From assembly GCF_013030265.1 (NCBI RefSeq), contig NZ_WPZQ01000003.1, forward strand, positions 372,001-436,000: a stretch of 64,000 nucleotides of DNA, read 5' to 3'. The position numbers and the translations under genes are program-made. Below are positions 29,078-58,217 of the stretch, piece by piece. Numbering within the stretch: position 1 is the first letter of the stretch; each line of letters starts with the position of its first letter. The DNA is from Ruegeria arenilitoris (lineage in GTDB: Bacteria; Pseudomonadota; Alphaproteobacteria; Rhodobacterales; Rhodobacteraceae). Below the pieces are notes generated by a model. That model saw only the letters and a program-made list of their open reading frames with translations. It had not been told where the DNA came from and did not search any database.

Positions 29078-29406
29078 ACCAGGTCGATCCAGTAACCATG
29101 TGGACCATCATCGTAGGGCTGGCTGTCGGCAGCTATACCCTGCGCTTTGTCTTCATCGGATTTGTCGGGGATCGCCCGATGCCACCATGGCTGCTGCGCC
29201 ATCTGCGCTACACGGCGGTTGCGATCCTGCCTGCATTGATTGCGCCACTGGTTGTCTGGCCATCCGCAACTGCGGGGCAGCCTGATGCACCACGCATGGC
29301 TGCAGCGGCAGTTGCCCTGACCGTTGGTCTTGTCACCAAGAATGTGCTGGCGGCCATCTTTACCGGGGCCGCCACACTTTATGGTCTGCTGTATTTACTG
29401 GGATAA
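29074..29406 (+). CDS. azlD: Branched-chain amino acid exporter, small subunit AzlD
   Basis: A 110-residue membrane protein with about four hydrophobic segments. The opening WTIIVGLAVGSYTLRFVFIG and RHLRYTAVAILPALIAP are typical of AzlD. It is translationally coupled to azlC. Its 3' end overlaps the convergent lipoprotein gene by 12 bp. Confidence 0.94.
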   Translation: MNQVDPVTMWTIIVGLAVGSYTLRFVFIGFVGDRPMPPWLLRHLRYTAVAILPALIAPLVVWPSATAGQPDAPRMAAAAVALTVGLVTKNVLAAIFTGAATLYGLLYLLG

Positions 29407-30027
29407 ACCCGCTGCCTGCTGATTGAGGCGCGCATTGTTTGCTGCAAGACCTTTCTGAAGGTCCGCATCGTCATATTCCCGGTATTCCGTGGTCACGACG
29501 CCCGGGATTTGCCCGAATTGCTCTGCCAATTTGACCGGGAAAAAGGTCACATCGATCTGCTCGAACCCGGGAACCTGCTGTAGAATCCGAGAGGTGGAAT
29601 TGGCGCAATAGGCCCCCGCCACCGGTCCGGATTGCTTGGCAAGCTGATAGGCAACCTCGGCCTGCTGTGGGCTGACCTCGATCGTCTGAACGAGGGCATA
29701 GTGCGTCTCGCGTGCATGCGAGCTGCGATAGGCCCGTTCAACAGCTGGGGTTATTCCATACAGGACGTCATCCTTGACTGGCACAATATCTGCCCGGAAA
29801 GAACCCGCCGGATCAAAAATTACCCGCTCGCTGGCGCCGATCATCAAGGATGTGTGCGCGCCAGACCCTGTACGGGTGTTGATCATGGTATAGAGCGTGA
29901 GTGTGGAGGGACCCGGATCCTGATAGGATCGCGCAACAATCTCAGCCTGATCGGCTTGCGGACGCTTGGATACTGCGCAGCCAGCCACGGTCACTGCCAG
30001 AAGGCAGGCAATCAAAATCCTGATCAC
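29395..30027 (-). CDS. Lipoprotein with a possible papain-like (YiiX/LRAT-type) domain (210 aa)
   Basis: Residues 1-17 are a lipoprotein signal with lipobox VAGC. The mature domain has a His after a strand (SGAHTSLMIGASERVIFDP, H58) and later a Cys at the head of a helix (GAYCANSTSRILQQV, C141). His before Cys, followed by a small polar run, is the order of circularly permuted NlpC/P60 proteins such as YiiX and LRAT, which include lipid acyltransferases and amidases. This fold is inferred from motif order only. It heads downstream from the oxidase subunit IV gene and the phospholipase-like gene. Confidence 0.7.
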   Translation of the reverse strand: MIRILIACLLAVTVAGCAVSKRPQADQAEIVARSYQDPGPSTLTLYTMINTRTGSGAHTSLMIGASERVIFDPAGSFRADIVPVKDDVLYGITPAVERAYRSSHARETHYALVQTIEVSPQQAEVAYQLAKQSGPVAGAYCANSTSRILQQVPGFEQIDVTFFPVKLAEQFGQIPGVVTTEYREYDDADLQKGLAANNARLNQQAAGLSQ

Positions 30028-30045
30028 GGATGCACTCGCCCAGAT

Positions 30046-30180
30046 TTACGCAGCGAACACTGCCAGGAACAGGCACAGAAGGACGATCGCCACAACGCAC
30101 CATGTGGTGAATTTGATGAAACCGTCAAAGGTTTTGGTTTGAACGGTGATGTCCATCTCGCCGTGCTTGTATTCAGCCAT
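30046..30180 (-). CDS. aa3-type cytochrome c oxidase subunit IV (44 aa)
   Basis: A frame starting at the ATG at 30180. It reads MAEYKHGEMDITVQTKTFDG, then FIKFTTWCVVAIVLLCLFLA and a short end. The N-terminal HGEMDI with KTFxGFIKF and one membrane helix is the signature of the small bacterial aa3 oxidase subunit IV of Rhodobacter and Paracoccus. It has one transmembrane helix beside subunits I-III. No other oxidase gene is in the window, which is usual for this subunit. Confidence 0.88.
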   Translation of the reverse strand: MAEYKHGEMDITVQTKTFDGFIKFTTWCVVAIVLLCLFLAVFAA

Positions 30181-30246
30181 GTCTCTAGAATCCCAATTCG
30201 CGTGTTTATCGGTTGAATAATGGAAAACTCAGGGCCTGTCACCACG

Positions 30247-30807
30247 TCATTCCCGCGCAGGGGTGGGCAGAGCAAAGACTGAGCAGTTTGGGTAACCAAA
30301 CCCCCAGCGCCATGGCAGGCCGGTGCAGGGACCCCCGCCAAAACGGACCGCCATGTACATGCCTTCTGCAGTAATGGAATGTGCCGATCGGACCTGATCT
30401 GGTGTCATGTCGTAACGGATCGCGTATTCTTCGGCATGGGCATTCCCGTGCTCTTTGACACAGGACCGCAGTGTCTGATCTGCGGATAGTCTGGCGTCAA
30501 AGCTATCTTCTGCACGTAATGCACCGCCAGCGTTGTGATAGGCTCGATCGTGAATGACGCAACAGTCTTCCCAAGGGGGGCGCTCTTCGTAAAGCCTTGC
30601 GAATTCCGGAAAGGTGTCCGCCACCAGCCGCCAGCTTGCCGACATACCGCCCGAGCATCCGTCGGTTTCAAACTCTGTCAGTTCAGCAGTACCGCGTTGT
30701 TCAATCAATGCGCGGTGGCCCGGCATTTCTACACCGCGCATCAATTCTTGCGCCTGAACGGGAACTGCCAGACAAGCCAGAACTAACGACAGTTCAGGGG
30801 CTTTCAT
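30247..30807 (-). CDS. Exported phospholipase A2-like protein (186 aa)
   Basis: The ATG at 30807 gives a signal peptide (LSLVLACLAVPVQAQ). The mature protein has DGCSGG (C51) and then PWEDCCVIHDRAYHNAGG (C82, C83, H86, D87, Y90), closely matching the CC-x2-HD-x2-Y catalytic helix of secreted phospholipases A2. The calcium-loop glycine pattern is only partly recognisable, so activity is not certain. It overlaps the end of the membrane glycerophosphodiesterase gene by 14 bp, hinting at a shared role in phospholipid breakdown. It is sometimes given unrelated names in databases. Confidence 0.75.
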   Translation of the reverse strand: MKAPELSLVLACLAVPVQAQELMRGVEMPGHRALIEQRGTAELTEFETDGCSGGMSASWRLVADTFPEFARLYEERPPWEDCCVIHDRAYHNAGGALRAEDSFDARLSADQTLRSCVKEHGNAHAEEYAIRYDMTPDQVRSAHSITAEGMYMAVRFGGGPCTGLPWRWGFGYPNCSVFALPTPARE

Positions 30808-32632
30808 CGCGCATTGCCTCAGTATCCACCGAAAGACCAAAGGTTGTTGCAAGCCACAGCAGCAACCGCTCACCCGGCCCCATTTCAGCGCGAACCCTCA
30901 GCACTTCGTTGGCCATCGCAGGCCGATCGGTGATCAGGCCATCCACACCCATCGAAGCCATTGCAGACATCTGCAACGGGTCATTCACGGTCCAGACGTA
31001 GATATCCTTGCCTGCATCATGAACCGACCGGATAAGGCCCGGAGTGACCATCGCAGCGTTGACGGCGACAAAATCCCCTTCCAGGCCGGACAGGTCTCCA
31101 ATGGCTGTCGCGGCCAAAACACCGGAACGCCAATCGGGGCGCAGAGATTTCATCTTTTGGACAGCTGGGTATTTCAGCGACATTGTCGCAATGTCATCCT
31201 GCATTCCCAGTTCTTCAACGATCTGAATCACACGGTTTTCCAGATCGACATCATGGCCATAGTACTTCAGCTCTATGATGACCTTGGACTTTCCCTTCGC
31301 CGCACTCAGAACATGCCGCAGAGTCGGGGTGCGTTCTGTGGCATACTCCGGACCAAACCAACTGCCGATATCAATTTCAGCCACATCCTCCATCGTGGCG
31401 TCCCAGACCTTCAGATTCACGCCAGCAAGCTTCATGAAGTCACTGTCATGGGCGACGATAACCACGTCGTCTGCGGTCTCCTGAACGTCAATCTCGACCC
31501 AATCCGCGCCATCCTCAATCGCCTTCAGGACCGAGGCCATGGTGTTTTCCGGGCGCAGCGCAGCAGCACCGCGATGACCGATAACCTCGGCATGATCAGG
31601 GGCCTGAACCCGCTCGAGCAGGCCCTGCCCCATCCACAATCCAAACAGCAACGCCGCTATTGCAGCGCCAACCGTCAAAAACATGGGTGTGCGTATGTTT
31701 GCGGGTTCGGGATGCGGGATTTCACCGGTTTTGGTTTCAAAGAACCCGTCCAACAGCACCGCCAACGCACCCAGTGCAGTCGCTGCCAAAACCAGCCCGG
31801 CCAGAGACCACAGTCCAGCCACCAGCAAACTCAGGGTCAAAGCAAATCTCAGATTTACCCCATCCTGCAAAGGCACCAACGCGAATAATATGCCTGCAAC
31901 AGCTGCAATCAGTGCCGCGATGACGAAACGCAGAGCCAGCCACAACACAAGCTCAACCTTCAGGCGGCCACGCTTGCCTTCCATCCGTTCAGCGCTCTGA
32001 TCAAACGCGGCAGAGGGTGCACAATCTTCAAAAAGAACCAGATGCAAGGACAAAGCCCAGGCCGAGAGCTTGCGGATCAGGACCCATGCCAGTGCCAGCA
32101 CGACAATCCCGATCAGAACAACGGCAACCTTAAAGGCAGGCGGGTGAAAGGTCAGATAATAGTTGATGTCATACTCGGTCAGCGTCCACCACGCGATTAT
32201 TCCGGCGACCGCCACGAATGGCAGGGCCAGCAACAGAACCCGTAATATGAAGCGCACTGCAAAGCCAAACAGCGCAGGTAGACGTGACAGGATCAGACGG
32301 ATGGCGGCACTGCCTGCGCGCCATGGATCACGCTCACCCATGCGCAGTGAGCCTGCCATGACAGAAAACACGAAGACTTCTGCCAGCAGAAACAGGCTCA
32401 AAACCACGATCGCAGCGATAAATCCTGCTGGGGAAAGGATGAACATTGCGATGTCCTGATCCGTCAGCGCTGTTTGATTGGACAGCGAAACGGCCAGATT
32501 TACAGCGATGGCAACACCCGGCGCGATCAGGGCCACCAAGAGCAACCGCACGGCAATATAGATCGGCACAAAGACCCGCCGCCGGGCCCAGGCACCGGCA
32601 TAGGCATTTGTAACAGCTGAGAAATATGTCAC
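30794..32632 (-). CDS. Membrane-anchored glycerophosphodiester phosphodiesterase
   Basis: The GTG at 32632 is chosen because GGAGG lies seven bases upstream; an in-frame ATG eight codons earlier lacks such a site. The first half (about 330 residues) has multiple membrane helices, like the glycerophosphoryl diester phosphodiesterase membrane domain. The second half is a TIM-barrel GDPD domain with GHRGAAALRPENT, WVEIDVQETAD, VVIVAHD and a final GVDGLITDRP. It releases glycerol-3-phosphate from glycerophosphodiesters. The overlapping phospholipase A2-like gene fits upstream in the same pathway. Confidence 0.92.
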   Translation of the reverse strand: MTYFSAVTNAYAGAWARRRVFVPIYIAVRLLLVALIAPGVAIAVNLAVSLSNQTALTDQDIAMFILSPAGFIAAIVVLSLFLLAEVFVFSVMAGSLRMGERDPWRAGSAAIRLILSRLPALFGFAVRFILRVLLLALPFVAVAGIIAWWTLTEYDINYYLTFHPPAFKVAVVLIGIVVLALAWVLIRKLSAWALSLHLVLFEDCAPSAAFDQSAERMEGKRGRLKVELVLWLALRFVIAALIAAVAGILFALVPLQDGVNLRFALTLSLLVAGLWSLAGLVLAATALGALAVLLDGFFETKTGEIPHPEPANIRTPMFLTVGAAIAALLFGLWMGQGLLERVQAPDHAEVIGHRGAAALRPENTMASVLKAIEDGADWVEIDVQETADDVVIVAHDSDFMKLAGVNLKVWDATMEDVAEIDIGSWFGPEYATERTPTLRHVLSAAKGKSKVIIELKYYGHDVDLENRVIQIVEELGMQDDIATMSLKYPAVQKMKSLRPDWRSGVLAATAIGDLSGLEGDFVAVNAAMVTPGLIRSVHDAGKDIYVWTVNDPLQMSAMASMGVDGLITDRPAMANEVLRVRAEMGPGERLLLWLATTFGLSVDTEAMRDESP

Positions 32633-32696
32633 GCGGCGCCCTCCTGAGTATCGCACTCATTCAAGGCTGCGAAAGCGTGAATTGCAAGTCAGGTTG

Positions 32697-33155
32697 TCAG
32701 GTTTCTTCCAGATCTGCCGCCAGTCGGAAACCGATACGGTTGGCAGGCTTATCCTCAACGGACTTGGGCAAGGCACGCAGCATCACGTTCAGCTGGCTGA
32801 CATGTTGCACCAGTTGCGTACGTGCGCCGGCGCCATCTGAACCATAGAAGGTGATGATATCGGGATCGAAATACCCCATCCCTTCGATCCGCATCACGCC
32901 CGCGTCGCCTCCGGTAAAGCCCATGGCAACTTCATGATCGCCATCCAGCGTCTTTTCAAAGTTCTGAATGTACAGGATCAGTCGCTCATATGCCCATTGG
33001 GCGGGGCTTTTGGTTGCAACGGGCTTTTGCAGGGGCTCGGGCAGAGCTTTGGTGCCGGATTCAGCATTCGGGTTGGCATGCACTTCATAGCAGCGTGGCA
33101 ACGCTGCTGCCTCGGCAGCCTCGGCCGATGTTTCGATCTTGTCCTGCATACGCAT
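32697..33155 (-). CDS. DUF6173-like protein (152 aa)
   Basis: A soluble protein without signal peptide. About 45 alanine-, proline- and glutamate-rich residues are followed by a domain reading AYERLILYIQNFEKTLDGDH, then EVAMGF, MRIEGMGYFDPDIITFYG and TQLVQHVSQLNVMLRALPK. This last region matches my recollection of DUF6173, small proteins common in Rhodobacterales. The start ATG follows the metallo-beta-lactamase stop directly (TAGATG), with AAAGGG just upstream. Function unknown. Confidence 0.75.
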   Translation of the reverse strand: MRMQDKIETSAEAAEAAALPRCYEVHANPNAESGTKALPEPLQKPVATKSPAQWAYERLILYIQNFEKTLDGDHEVAMGFTGGDAGVMRIEGMGYFDPDIITFYGSDGAGARTQLVQHVSQLNVMLRALPKSVEDKPANRIGFRLAADLEET

Positions 33156-34205
33156 CTACCCTTTGCGCTGGTATTCCCATGCCCCGTCCACGCGACGCGA
33201 CCGGCTCACAGACCCAATGTGGTAGAGATGGTTCAGGTGTGCAACCGCTTCGACCAGTGCGAGGCCATATTCACCTTCGCGAATTGGTCGCTTGAACAAG
33301 GGAGCAAAGCAATCGGCGGCGGCCTTTGGCGTATCCAGTTCGTCAATCAAACGCGCCAGCGCGCCATGGTGGTTTTCGATCAGTTGCCGCATCCGTACAG
33401 GCAATCCGGTAAACGGCAGCTTGTGACCGCCCAACACCAGTTGATCCGGATGCGCCAGCGATTGCAGACGCTCACAAGCCTCAAGCCAGTCCGAGACCGG
33501 ATCGGCCATGGGTTCCGTCGCATAGACGCCCAGGTTGGGGCTGATCGAACTGATGATCTGATCACCAGTCAGCACCAGATTGTCGTCCCGACTCCAGAAC
33601 GTGGCATGTTCGGGGGCATGGCCATTGCCCATATGCACATCCCAGTCGCGCCCGCCCATATGGATCACGTCGCCCTGCTTGATCCGGGTAAAGCCCAGCG
33701 GCATCGGATAAACAGTGTCCGAGAAATTGAACGGCCGCTCGGCCATACGCTTTTCAAGAACGTCCGCAGCCATACCTGCGCTGCGATAGAAATCTAGCGT
33801 TTCCTGAGGCCAGTTCTCCTGAACGTCCAGCGTCAGCATCCGGGCGAACAGCCAGGCTGTACGGCTGGTGATCAGTTCGGCACCGTGTTCTGACTGAAAC
33901 CAACCCGCATTCCCGACATGATCGGGGTGGTGATGTGTCACCACGATGCGTTTGACCGGTTTCCCAGACAAGGGGCCGGACATCAGTTGCTCCCAGATGC
34001 CACGCGTCTTTTTCGATGACATGCCGGTGTCGATGACAGTCCAGCTGTCACCGTCATCCAGCGCATAGACGTTTACGTGATCCAGCGCCATCGGCAACGG
34101 AAGACGCATCCACAGAACACCATCGGCGACTTCAATGGCCTCACCCGGTGCCGGTGGTTCGGACCAGGGGTATCGGATCGCCGGAGGCTGCACGCCGTCC
34201 ATCAC
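33156..34205 (-). CDS. MBL-fold metallohydrolase (LACTB2-like)
   Basis: A 349-residue metallo-beta-lactamase-fold hydrolase. Zinc-binding motif HHHPDHVGN, preceded by WTVIDTGMSS, then VHMGNGHAPEHATFW and LTGDQIISSISPNLG carry the remaining His and Asp ligands. A C-terminal region of about 90 residues resembles the winged-helix tail of the LACTB2-like hydrolases. Its start overlaps the acyl-CoA dehydrogenase stop by 4 bp, so a thioesterase-like role in the same pathway is possible, but this is inference. Confidence 0.9.
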   Translation of the reverse strand: MMDGVQPPAIRYPWSEPPAPGEAIEVADGVLWMRLPLPMALDHVNVYALDDGDSWTVIDTGMSSKKTRGIWEQLMSGPLSGKPVKRIVVTHHHPDHVGNAGWFQSEHGAELITSRTAWLFARMLTLDVQENWPQETLDFYRSAGMAADVLEKRMAERPFNFSDTVYPMPLGFTRIKQGDVIHMGGRDWDVHMGNGHAPEHATFWSRDDNLVLTGDQIISSISPNLGVYATEPMADPVSDWLEACERLQSLAHPDQLVLGGHKLPFTGLPVRMRQLIENHHGALARLIDELDTPKAAADCFAPLFKRPIREGEYGLALVEAVAHLNHLYHIGSVSRSRRVDGAWEYQRKG

Positions 34206-35905
34206 GCGGCCAACTCATCGGCGCTGAGCGCAAAGAGGTCTTCGGCACCGTTCTGCGCCTGTGCCAGAAGGCCTGCATGTTCAGGAAGCAGAGCGTTGAT
34301 GTAGTAGCGAGCCAGTTTCGCCCGCGGACCGTCCGGATCAGCCAGCGCTGCAGACAGGTGGTAGTGCCCGCCCAGCACCCGCGCGAAAGCGTTGAGATAG
34401 GCAACCGCCCCGGCGAAGCGGTTATTGAGGTCATCCTGCGACACTAGCCATTCGGTGGCTTCGCGCAGGGATTCGGTTGCTTCCCAGACCGGACCAGCCA
34501 GTTCGGGCACGGTCGCCCGGGCTTTTTCAGCCTGATCCTCGATCTCGTCCAGAAGGCGCGAGGCTGCCTCACCACCATCCATCATCTTGCGGGCAACAAG
34601 GTCCATTGCCTGAATGCCATTGGTACCTTCGTAGATCGCTGTCACGCGGACATCGCGGTAGTACTGCGCGGCCCCGGTTTCTTCGATGAAGCCCATGCCA
34701 CCGTGCACCTGCACACCTGTTTCGGCGACCCGCATCCCGGTCTGGGTACCAAAGGCCTTGCCGATCGGCGTCAGCAGCGCGGCACGAGCCGCCCATTCTG
34801 CATCACCGGTCGCCTGCGCCATATCGATGGCTTGGGCGTTGGCCAGCATGATCGCTCGCGCTGCAAAGACATCAGCGCGCATTTCGGTCAGCATACGACG
34901 CACATCCGCATGATCGATGATTGTGCCGGAAGGTGTCTTGCCCTGTTTCCGCTCCAACGCATAGGCCAGTGCATGCTGGTAGGCTCCTTCGGCGGAGCCG
35001 ACGCCTTGCCCGCCAACACCCAGACGCGCATTGTTCATCATGGTAAACATGGCCGCCATACCGCCATGTTCCTTGCCGACCAGCCAACCAGTCGCTCCGT
35101 CATACTGCATCACGCAGGTCGGAGAGCCGTGCAAACCCATCTTGTGCTCGAGCGAGACGACCTTGAGATCGTTCGCGACGCCGGGCTTGCCGTTTTCATC
35201 CGGAATGTACTTAGGCACCAGGAACAGCGAAATGCCCTTGGTGCCCGAAACGCCATCGGGCAGGCGTGCCAGCACCAGATGACAGATGTTTTCGCAAAAG
35301 TCGTTGTCACCCCACGAGATGTAGATCTTCTGCCCGGTCACAGCGTAGGTACCGTCACCATTAGGCACAGCCTTTGAGGACAACGCCCCGACATCCGATC
35401 CGGCCTGCGGTTCAGTCAGGTTCATCGTTCCCGACCATTCACCTGACATCAGCTTGGGCAGATACAGCTCTTTCAGCTCATCGCTCGCGTGATGTTCCAG
35501 CGCCTCGATCTGTCCCTGGCTCATTAACGGAGCCAGCTGCAGCGACAGGCAAGCCGCACTCATCATTTCGTTTACGGCGGTGGTCACGGTCATCGGCAGC
35601 CCCATGCCGCCATATTCGGGATCGCCACTCATCCCGATCCATCCGCCTTCGGCGATCGCTTTCCAGCCATCGGCATAACCAGTTGACGTACGCAAAACAC
35701 CGTTTTCCAGCCGGGCTGGTTCCAGATCGCCGGGACGCTGAAGCGGAGCCAAGACCTCTTCGCACATCTTGCCCGCCTCGGACAGGATCGCGCTGACCAC
35801 GTCCGCGCTGGCCTCGGAAAACTTGTCGGTGGCGGCGACCTGGTCAAACCCCACAACATTGCTGAGCAGGAACTCGTAATCGGAGATTGGAGCGCGATAT
35901 GGCAT
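34202..35905 (-). CDS. Acyl-CoA dehydrogenase, DmdC-like group
   Basis: FAD-dependent dehydrogenase of 567 residues, longer than the classic 380-residue enzymes and with the extra C-terminal domain of the DmdC/FadE group. Conserved text: MNLTEPQAGSDVGAL, KIYISWGDND, LEHKMGLHGSPTCVM, VHGGMGFIEETG and AIYEGTNGIQAMDL (catalytic Glu). DmdC oxidises methylmercaptopropionyl-CoA in DMSP breakdown. Roseobacters carry several such paralogs, some acting on fatty acyl-CoA, so the substrate stays open. Electrons would go through ETF to the oxidoreductase at 18860-20506. Followed by coupled hydrolase and DUF6173 genes. Confidence 0.9.
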   Translation of the reverse strand: MPYRAPISDYEFLLSNVVGFDQVAATDKFSEASADVVSAILSEAGKMCEEVLAPLQRPGDLEPARLENGVLRTSTGYADGWKAIAEGGWIGMSGDPEYGGMGLPMTVTTAVNEMMSAACLSLQLAPLMSQGQIEALEHHASDELKELYLPKLMSGEWSGTMNLTEPQAGSDVGALSSKAVPNGDGTYAVTGQKIYISWGDNDFCENICHLVLARLPDGVSGTKGISLFLVPKYIPDENGKPGVANDLKVVSLEHKMGLHGSPTCVMQYDGATGWLVGKEHGGMAAMFTMMNNARLGVGGQGVGSAEGAYQHALAYALERKQGKTPSGTIIDHADVRRMLTEMRADVFAARAIMLANAQAIDMAQATGDAEWAARAALLTPIGKAFGTQTGMRVAETGVQVHGGMGFIEETGAAQYYRDVRVTAIYEGTNGIQAMDLVARKMMDGGEAASRLLDEIEDQAEKARATVPELAGPVWEATESLREATEWLVSQDDLNNRFAGAVAYLNAFARVLGGHYHLSAALADPDGPRAKLARYYINALLPEHAGLLAQAQNGAEDLFALSADELAA

Positions 35906-46424: not shown

Positions 46425-46497
46425 GCTTCTCAATCTAACCACCTTTTGACCGAGGGAAAGCGAATAGACCTTGCCATGGCGCTCAGTCGCACCGACG

Positions 46498-47139
46498 ATG
46501 CGGATATTCATGCTGTTTGCCTTACGATTCCTTCTGATTGGATTGCTGTTTGCCGTCTTTAGCGGCGAACCTGCCTCAGCGACTTTTCACGACCAGCATA
46601 ACCAATGCCGCGCCGGTCAGTTCCAATGTGGCAGCAACTGCTGTTCGGTCGGACAAAGGTGCAGCTTTGACGGGCACTGCATCCGGGCTGGCGGCACCTA
46701 TTGCGGCGGTGGACGATCCTGCGGACCGTTCGAGCGTTGCGTTGCTGGCGGCACCCGATGTGCGCCAGCTGGGGCGAACAAATGCGCCTCCAGCCTTGAT
46801 TGTCCAAGTGGTTCACGTTGCAACGGGCGCGGAGAATGCGAGAAGATCACGCCCAACTTCGATCCCAGCCCCCGCCCAAAGCCGATCAATCAATGCGACG
46901 ATGGATTGGTCTGTGCACCGGGTTCCGTTTGTTTACCGGGGGGCGGATGCAGTCGCCCCGGCTGGTACTTGTGTGAAGAAACCGGTTCCCAATGCCGTCA
47001 GGGGTTCAAATGTTCTGCCGGTCGGGGATGTGTACCACTCAAGGCCATCGACTGCGGAAACGGCAAGTGGTGCAAACCCGGCGAGCAGTGCCTGCCCGAA
47101 GGCGGTTGCGAGAAACTGCCCGAAGGAACGGAACCTTAG
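46498..47139 (+). CDS. Exported cysteine-rich repeat protein (213 aa)
   Basis: No known family recognised. The start at 46498 precedes a signal peptide ([20 protein letters not shown]); a Met four codons on is possible and no good ribosome binding site marks either. The mature part holds 26 cysteines in about 190 residues. It has one six-Cys unit (QCRAGQFQC to DGHC) and five four-Cys units of pattern C-x5/6-C-x5-C-x5/6-C, for example [14 protein letters not shown] and [14 protein letters not shown]. It is probably a disulfide-stabilised secreted binding or structural protein. Divergent from the glycosylase gene, 73 bp apart. Confidence 0.8.
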
Positions 47140-57125: not shown

Positions 57126-58217
57126 ATGTCGACTGCAAGTAGTATCGAACGAGAAATGCTGGCGCTGATCAATCAGGAGCGCACATCCCGCGGACTGGAG
57201 CCGCTGCAACTGGAAACACGCCTGAATGAATCATCTGAGGATCACAGCGAATGGATGCTGGCCACGGACACGTTCAGCCACACTGGTTCGGGTGGTTCCA
57301 CCGCAACCCAGCGGATGGAAATGGCTGGCTTCGATTTTTCAGGCAGCTGGAGATCGGGCGAGAACATCGCGTGGCAATCCGAGCGTGGTGCACCCGGCAT
57401 CAGTGATGATGTCCAACAGCTTCACCAGAACCTGATGAACAGCCCCGGTCACCGGGCCAATATCCTGAACCCGGATTTCAAATACATCGGTATCGGCGTT
57501 GAAACCGGTGACATGCAAGGATTTGACGCTGTAATGGTCACCCAGAACTTTGCCACAACCGATGCAGCGGTCATGCTGGACAATGGTGGGACCACCCCAC
57601 CTGCCCCTACACCGCCAGTTGAAGAAACCCCGCAGCCAGAAGAACCGGTGGCCGAAGTACCTCAGCCCGAAGAACCCGTAACCGAAACGCCGGATACTGA
57701 TGTCACCGAGACCGAAGAGCCGGAAACCGAAACTCCGGGAACCGACGTGACTGAAACCGAGGAACCGGAAGTCGAAACGCCGGATACCGACGTCACCGAA
57801 ACCGAGGAACCGGAAGCTGAAACACCGGATACCGACGTGACCGAAACTGAGGAACCAGAAACCGAAACCCCAGGAACAGACGTCACGGAAACCGAAGAGC
57901 CGGAGACCGAAACGCCGGTGACTGAGACACCTGAACCAGAACAACCCGAATATGCATGCTTTGATGTTCAGGCCTTCCTTGCTGAGATCGAAGCATTCGT
58001 CCAATCCCTAAGAGCTCAGCTGGACCAATTCGACTGGAACGAAACCGAGCTGGCGGATTCAGAGCCCGAAACGGACGATTTCGAACTGGTCATGGCTGGT
58101 GAGAACAATCCTGCGTCCGAGTTGGAGACCACAAATTCGGATGTGGCGGAAGACACCTGCGGGGACGTCTTTGTGTTCAACTACTATGATGTTGATTTCA
58201 TGATGGACGCCGCCTAA
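57126..58217 (+). CDS. CAP (SCP/PR1) domain protein with acidic repeats
   Basis: GGAGG lies before the ATG at 57126. Residues 8-150 are a CAP domain: ALINQERTSRGLEPL, SEWMLATDTFSHTG, GENIAW and NSPGHRANILNPDFKYIGIGV. A Pro/Glu linker leads to five 15-residue acidic repeats (residues 191-265). The C-terminal 100 residues include two Cys and end VFVFNYYDVDFMMDAA. There is no signal peptide. An acidic, low-Cys protein with a hydrophobic/aspartate C-terminus looks like a type I secretion substrate (inference). No secretion genes are adjacent. Confidence 0.87.
   Translation: MSTASSIEREMLALINQERTSRGLEPLQLETRLNESSEDHSEWMLATDTFSHTGSGGSTATQRMEMAGFDFSGSWRSGENIAWQSERGAPGISDDVQQLHQNLMNSPGHRANILNPDFKYIGIGVETGDMQGFDAVMVTQNFATTDAAVMLDNGGTTPPAPTPPVEETPQPEEPVAEVPQPEEPVTETPDTDVTETEEPETETPGTDVTETEEPEVETPDTDVTETEEPEAETPDTDVTETEEPETETPGTDVTETEEPETETPVTETPEPEQPEYACFDVQAFLAEIEAFVQSLRAQLDQFDWNETELADSEPETDDFELVMAGENNPASELETTNSDVAEDTCGDVFVFNYYDVDFMMDAA
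57696..57920 (+). repeat. Five 45-bp in-frame tandem repeats in the CAP gene
   Basis: Each unit encodes TDVTETEEPExETPx (x varies T, V or A, then G, D or V). The copies are degenerate at DNA level. They form an acidic, unstructured stalk. Confidence 0.9.

Follow-up and report, generated by a model that had tools for sequence, protein, structure and literature searches.

The question raised by this locus is whether three minus-strand genes in a window of 64,000 nucleotides from Ruegeria arenilitoris (the whole stretch of DNA that was analysed) serve one pathway of envelope phospholipid turnover. They code for a membrane glycerophosphodiester phosphodiesterase (GDPD), an exported protein resembling phospholipase A2 (PLA2-like protein) and a lipoprotein, and the original prediction had joined them in a single group. 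The features on which it relied, namely a lipobox lipoprotein with His before Cys, an exported protein with a CC-x2-HD-x2-Y helix, a membrane GDPD overlapping the latter gene by 14 bp and a gene for a cytochrome c oxidase subunit IV-like protein (COX4) in between, were all present, and the motifs were invariant. The three genes nevertheless constitute two separate units: a GDPD and PLA2-like module, and a lipoprotein gene belonging to an older block of lipoprotein, COX4, DUF6173, MBL-fold and acyl-CoA dehydrogenase genes. The best explanation, to which a probability of about 0.6 is assigned, is that the module, mobile in position, would carry out a calcium-dependent deacylation of envelope phospholipids and then remove the headgroup, and that it stands beside the older block with its lipoprotein.

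The GDPD and the PLA2-like gene form a genuine module of two genes, whose place has changed from genome to genome. Among 197 sampled genomes of the order Rhodobacterales the N-terminal membrane domain of the GDPD, searched alone, was found in 24, and 22 of these also carried the PLA2-like gene (Fisher 2e-19, a genome-level value that ignores relatedness); by genus, seven of the eight with the GDPD shared it with the PLA2-like gene (hypergeometric 8.7e-7). The two were on separate contigs in one genome (G169). The context of 80 PLA2 loci was fetched. The pair occupied the core site, adjoining the older block, in 65 of them, mostly from Ruegeria, and was there followed nearly always by COX4 and the lipoprotein; in nine the pair was present and the core genes were absent from the fetched stretch, three of the nine being on contigs below 10 kb, which limits the context. 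The overlapping pair was seen at non-core sites in L062, L066-L068, L160, L162, L166, L167, L172 and L179. At core and other sites alike, nearly all pairs had a start codon yielding a short overlap, mostly of 4, 14 or 17 bp (exceptions or unclear cases: L069, L070, L116, L157). The proposed PLA2-GDPD link was thus borne out, the pair co-occurring, overlapping and being found together at several genomic sites, and the PLA2 motif received independent profile support, described below. Several label changes for the site were needed on the PLA2 tree, whose branches were poorly supported, so that the core-site insertion may have had one origin or several. One of the pairs (L179) lies on a contig assigned to a metagenome-assembled genome of Oceanospirillaceae and groups in the tree with a Rhodobacterales branch, which may reflect transfer or mis-binning. 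The literature searched contained no report of this gene pair.

The PLA2-like protein begins with a Sec-type signal peptide ending in VQA|Q, and contains a Ca-loop DGCSGG (residues 49-54), the helix motif CCVIHDRAY, i.e. CC-x2-HD-x2-Y (82-90), a second aspartate, D110, and a C-terminal motif VR-GG-PC-GLPWRWG. In 40 orthologues D49-G50-C51, C82-C83, H86-D87, Y90 and D110 were invariant, and C83, H86, D87 and Y90 were kept even in distant relatives from other families. Because of this conservation, neither these motifs nor those of the lipoprotein are due to chance. In a loose-threshold Pfam scan of 21 members, two members matched PF00068 (best E 0.064), and no other family was matched more than once; PF05826, a second PLA2 family, was matched by one, and nine unrelated families once each. 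The extended profile A5, which comprises the PLA2-like family and more distant relatives, gave only two matches among 177,635 PDB sequences, both of them PLA2: 8k1w (E 0.025) and 4aup, of group XIII (E 0.44). It was in register with both at the Ca-loop (DGCS), the HD helix, the second Asp and the next helix; the unextended profiles found no relevant PDB match. An hhalign comparison of A5 with bacterial PF00068-like proteins brought the CxxHD motifs into register, and its score was not attained in any of 300 column shuffles. The AlphaFold model (pLDDT 78) shows two long consecutive helices bearing HD and D110. Membership of the PLA2 superfamily is hence probable, and D110, which is invariant and aligns with an Asp of 8k1w and 4aup, is the presumed dyad Asp.

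A phylum-wide profile search also returned short relatives of about 100-150 amino acids (L248-L256) from other Pseudomonadota families, without a Pfam family, which follow the pattern FxSDGCSxFPDG...CCxxHDxAYWxGG...VRxGGSP...RWGYGW. The skeleton common to them and to the PLA2-like protein is F-x-S/T-D-x-C ... CC-x2-HD-x2-Y ... R-x2-A-D ... VR-x-GG, and two of five short relatives weakly matched PF09056, the prokaryotic PLA2. Searches of the source genome with PF09056 and PF00068 gave no match. Proteins of other Alphaproteobacteria (L181-L184, L192-L193, L197) combine CxxHDxC with a Ca-loop of the kind found in animal PLA2 (GNYCGPG or similar); most of them score under the PF00068 cut-off.

The partner protein consists of about seven predicted transmembrane (TM) segments followed by a C-terminal GDPD domain (residues 353-572), in which H353, R354, E362, E380, D382, H395, E454 and K456 were identical in all 12 full-length sequences. 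The N-terminal, second and fourth loops carried positive charges, as did the sixth, though more weakly. This pattern, together with the seven hydrophobic segments, leads to the prediction that the catalytic domain faces the periplasm, which agrees with the export of the PLA2-like protein.

Besides the pairing, overlap, co-occurrence, different sites and conserved catalytic residues, which were observed, a sequence of steps can be proposed in which the topology, the activities and their order are read from the sequences. The PLA2-like protein, once exported by Sec, would bind Ca2+ through the DGC loop and through the Asp of HD, and its His86-Asp110 pair would strip envelope phospholipids of one acyl chain. 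The GDPD would be held by an inner-membrane anchor, with its catalytic domain on the periplasmic side, and would then hydrolyse the phosphodiester bond to the headgroup. Its substrate would be the lysophospholipid itself, in which case it would act as a lysophospholipase D, or the product of a second deacylation; the headgroup alcohol would be released together with lysophosphatidate or glycerol-3-phosphate. The product of a PLA2 is a 1-acyl lysophospholipid, the kind of substrate used by LpgD, and classical GDPDs require that both acyl chains be removed; therefore we think that the path may be completed by a lysophospholipase D role of this GDPD or by an unlinked lysophospholipase.

Several points weigh against this proposal. 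A PLA2 alone does not supply what classical GDPDs require, and the GDPD topology has charge bias as its only basis. Neither Pfam nor NCBIfam matched the PLA2-like protein above threshold, its model had no Foldseek match in the PDB, and, taken one by one, its PLA2 matches all fall short of a strict threshold, the best PDB value being the E of 0.025 given above. Six of the 80 loci lacked a GDPD in the fetched stretch (L161, L164, L171, L173, L175, L177), and in several genera (g4, g5, g21, g52, g79) the PLA2-like gene occurs without this type of GDPD.

It is tempting to speculate further that the PLA2-like proteins are an undescribed PLA2 family translationally coupled to a periplasmic GDPD acting as a lysophospholipase D, so that lysophosphatidate and headgroup would arise in two steps, and that the lipoprotein is a new permuted NlpC/P60 enzyme of acyl chains; in this full form the idea is doubtful, if conceivable. 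Since the marine Ruegeria that carry this PLA2-like family, which lacks a Pfam entry and is coupled to a GDPD, can be cultured and include R. pomeroyi, the pair would make the turnover of phospholipids in the periplasm easily accessible to genetics in bacteria relevant to marine phosphorus cycling. A near-universal lipoprotein of Rhodobacterales also gains a testable catalytic hypothesis.

The missing strict family match and the added C-terminal VR-GG-P-RWG motif, absent from the PLA2s aligned here, would also suit a non-enzymatic secreted or structural protein built on a PLA2-like scaffold and only incidentally paired with the GDPD. Such a protein is unlikely, however, to have kept every catalytic-type residue invariant in 40 sequences and in distant relatives of other families, or to have its gene overlap with the GDPD conserved at different sites.

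Phosphate limitation had been suggested as a setting, and the pair might then scavenge phosphate as part of the Pho regulon. In the relative Phaeobacter MED193 the extracellular GDPDs GlpQ-1 and GlpQ-2, which may or may not correspond to the window gene, are more abundant under phosphorus stress (PMC10132767). Against this, a two-repeat Pho-box scan of the 300 bp upstream of the GDPD in 21 loci revealed no consistent site, the best single locus among the 21 being equalled in 4 of 100 shuffles, and no promoter pattern stood out upstream of the pair. Since no Pho box stood out, the starvation role is unsupported, and this explanation too is improbable.

The lipoprotein has a different history. 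It was present in 194 of the 197 genomes, mostly without the GDPD-PLA2 pair, and outside the family none was found in a class-wide sample; the PLA2-like gene was present in 32 of the 197 genomes and in 12 of 89 genera. In all 20 fetched loci without PLA2 at the core site the lipoprotein adjoined COX4, these two being usually flanked by DUF6173, MBL and acyl-CoA dehydrogenase at one end and by AzlD/AzlC, FdhD and mobA at the opposite end; DUF6173 stood next to COX4-lipoprotein in most loci without the pair. Four of the 20 (L096-L099) had an intact core without PLA2 in genomes carrying the PLA2-like gene elsewhere. Since lipoprotein and COX4 remain together in loci without PLA2, the pair is regarded as having been inserted between COX4 and DUF6173; an ancestral presence followed by many losses is less likely. 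The core site of genera g5 and g52 had PLA2 alone, without GDPD. The lipoprotein, COX4-like, DUF6173, MBL and acyl-CoA dehydrogenase genes make up a block conserved across the order, seen in positions 29395-35905 of the window and in loci L081-L100, with AzlC/AzlD, FdhD, mobA and Moe in the flanks.

A single operon of three phospholipid-recycling enzymes, in which the lipoprotein would transfer or cleave off the second acyl chain, is consistent with the common strand and short gaps, with the 65 core-site loci described above and with a tentative lipoprotein fold assignment that would allow acyl chemistry. It is largely refuted by the synteny, and quite unlikely, because the lipoprotein is near-universal and stays with the intervening COX4 where the pair is absent or elsewhere. 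The caution voiced over the oxidase subunit IV gene was right; COX4 belongs with the lipoprotein in the older core. That the pair is a competition device, with the phospholipase secreted against other cells, would suit its patchy distribution over different sites and the existence of bacterial permuted NlpC/P60 and other phospholipase effectors (PMC12994826), but is highly improbable given a Sec-type signal peptide only, an unchanged chromosomal site in all Ruegeria loci seen, and no secretion-system marker or immunity gene noticed beside the pair, for which no systematic search was made.

As to the lipoprotein itself, H58 and C141 were invariant in 21 diverse orthologues, with His preceding Cys, and no Pfam family and no PDB sequence was matched. 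It was compared with alignments built here from members of C92/YiiX, LRAT and Lnb_N. By hhalign there was no match to YiiX/C92 or LRAT, and those assignments were rejected. With Lnb_N the alignment was collinear and 122-123 columns long (P about 0.05), pairing H58 with the conserved His and C141 with the conserved Cys; when columns were shuffled 400 times, its score was reached in 3 cases and an alignment of 100 columns in none. Identity to Lnb_N/DUF4105 was about 20%, below every family cut-off. The lipoprotein is thus probably a divergent permuted NlpC/P60 protein, nearest here to Lnb_N/DUF4105, on weak but in-register support; the earlier reading as a His-then-Cys protein like YiiX and LRAT is plausible, the best profile match being to Lnb_N/DUF4105 instead. 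Structure prediction of the gene product, which had been recommended, gave a confident model (pLDDT 87.5), for which Foldseek returned nothing significant in the PDB and BFVD. Several enzymes of the permuted NlpC/P60 type work on acyl chains, and in Bacteroides DUF4105 serves as the lipoprotein N-acyltransferase (PMC12994826). An envelope acyl-chain enzyme is our best guess for the lipoprotein. Its replacing Lnt is excluded, since every genome checked in the order, 101 of 101, had canonical Lnt. At another site the source genome has a distinct gene for an LRAT-family (PF04970) protein (G000:C25:121835-122125, L234; E 3.5e-10).

Table 1. Features of the locus, in their order along the minus strand (window positions).
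Feature	Position	Strand	Remarks
Acyl-CoA dehydrogenase	34202-35905	minus	member of older core block
MBL-fold protein	33156-34205	minus	older core block
DUF6173 protein	32697-33155	minus	Pfam DUF6173 1.7e-9; core neighbour upstream of insertion point
Membrane GDPD	30794-32632	minus	first module gene; Pfam GDPD 1e-38, GPDPase_memb 1.2e-7
GDPD 3' end / PLA2-like start overlap	30794-30807	minus	14 bp; translational coupling inferred
Exported PLA2-like protein	30247-30807	minus	second module gene; Sec-type signal peptide and PLA2 motifs
aa3-type cytochrome c oxidase subunit IV-like small protein (COX4), 44 aa	~30047-30181	minus	Pfam COX4_pro_2 3.7e-14; outside module
Lipoprotein	29395-30027	minus	lipobox VAGC, H58 before C141; older core

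Elsewhere in the window, the gene at positions 46471-47139 has a product that is predicted to be secreted, abounds in cysteine repeats and looks unusual for the group, and positions 57126-58217 code for a CAP-domain-like protein in which an acidic repeat (ETPDTDVTETEEPE) forms a long tandem array.

Compared with known systems, the lipoprotein has the His-then-Cys order in common with Lnb_N/DUF4105 and with the permuted NlpC/P60 proteins YiiX and LRAT, and a collinear profile alignment with Lnb_N only. The PLA2-like protein resembles the secreted PLA2s of prokaryotes and fungi (PF09056, group XIII and relatives; 8k1w, 4aup) in its secretion, the DGC(S) Ca-loop, the C-x2-HD-x2-Y helix and the second Asp on the next helix; it differs from them in an insert that, in the Rhodobacterales branch, adds about 15 residues after the Ca-loop and before the CC-HD helix, and in the extra C-terminal GG-PC-GLPWRWG region and extra cysteines. 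The GDPD has both Pfam domains of the membrane-anchored GDPDs (PF10110 and PF03009) above cut-off and all catalytic residues, and is distinguished by being encoded in an overlapping pair with the PLA2-like gene. LpgD, the lysophosphatidylglycerol phospholipase D of Staphylococcus aureus, is a GDPD-family enzyme acting on 1-acyl lysophospholipids, which are the kind of product that a PLA2 makes; like the window GDPD it has a membrane-tethered GDPD domain with the canonical active-site set (PMC10404611). The anchor of LpgD is a single TM segment, unlike the approximately seven of the window GDPD, which matched the LpgD model partially, over 77 residues, with 41 bits against a cut-off of 450.

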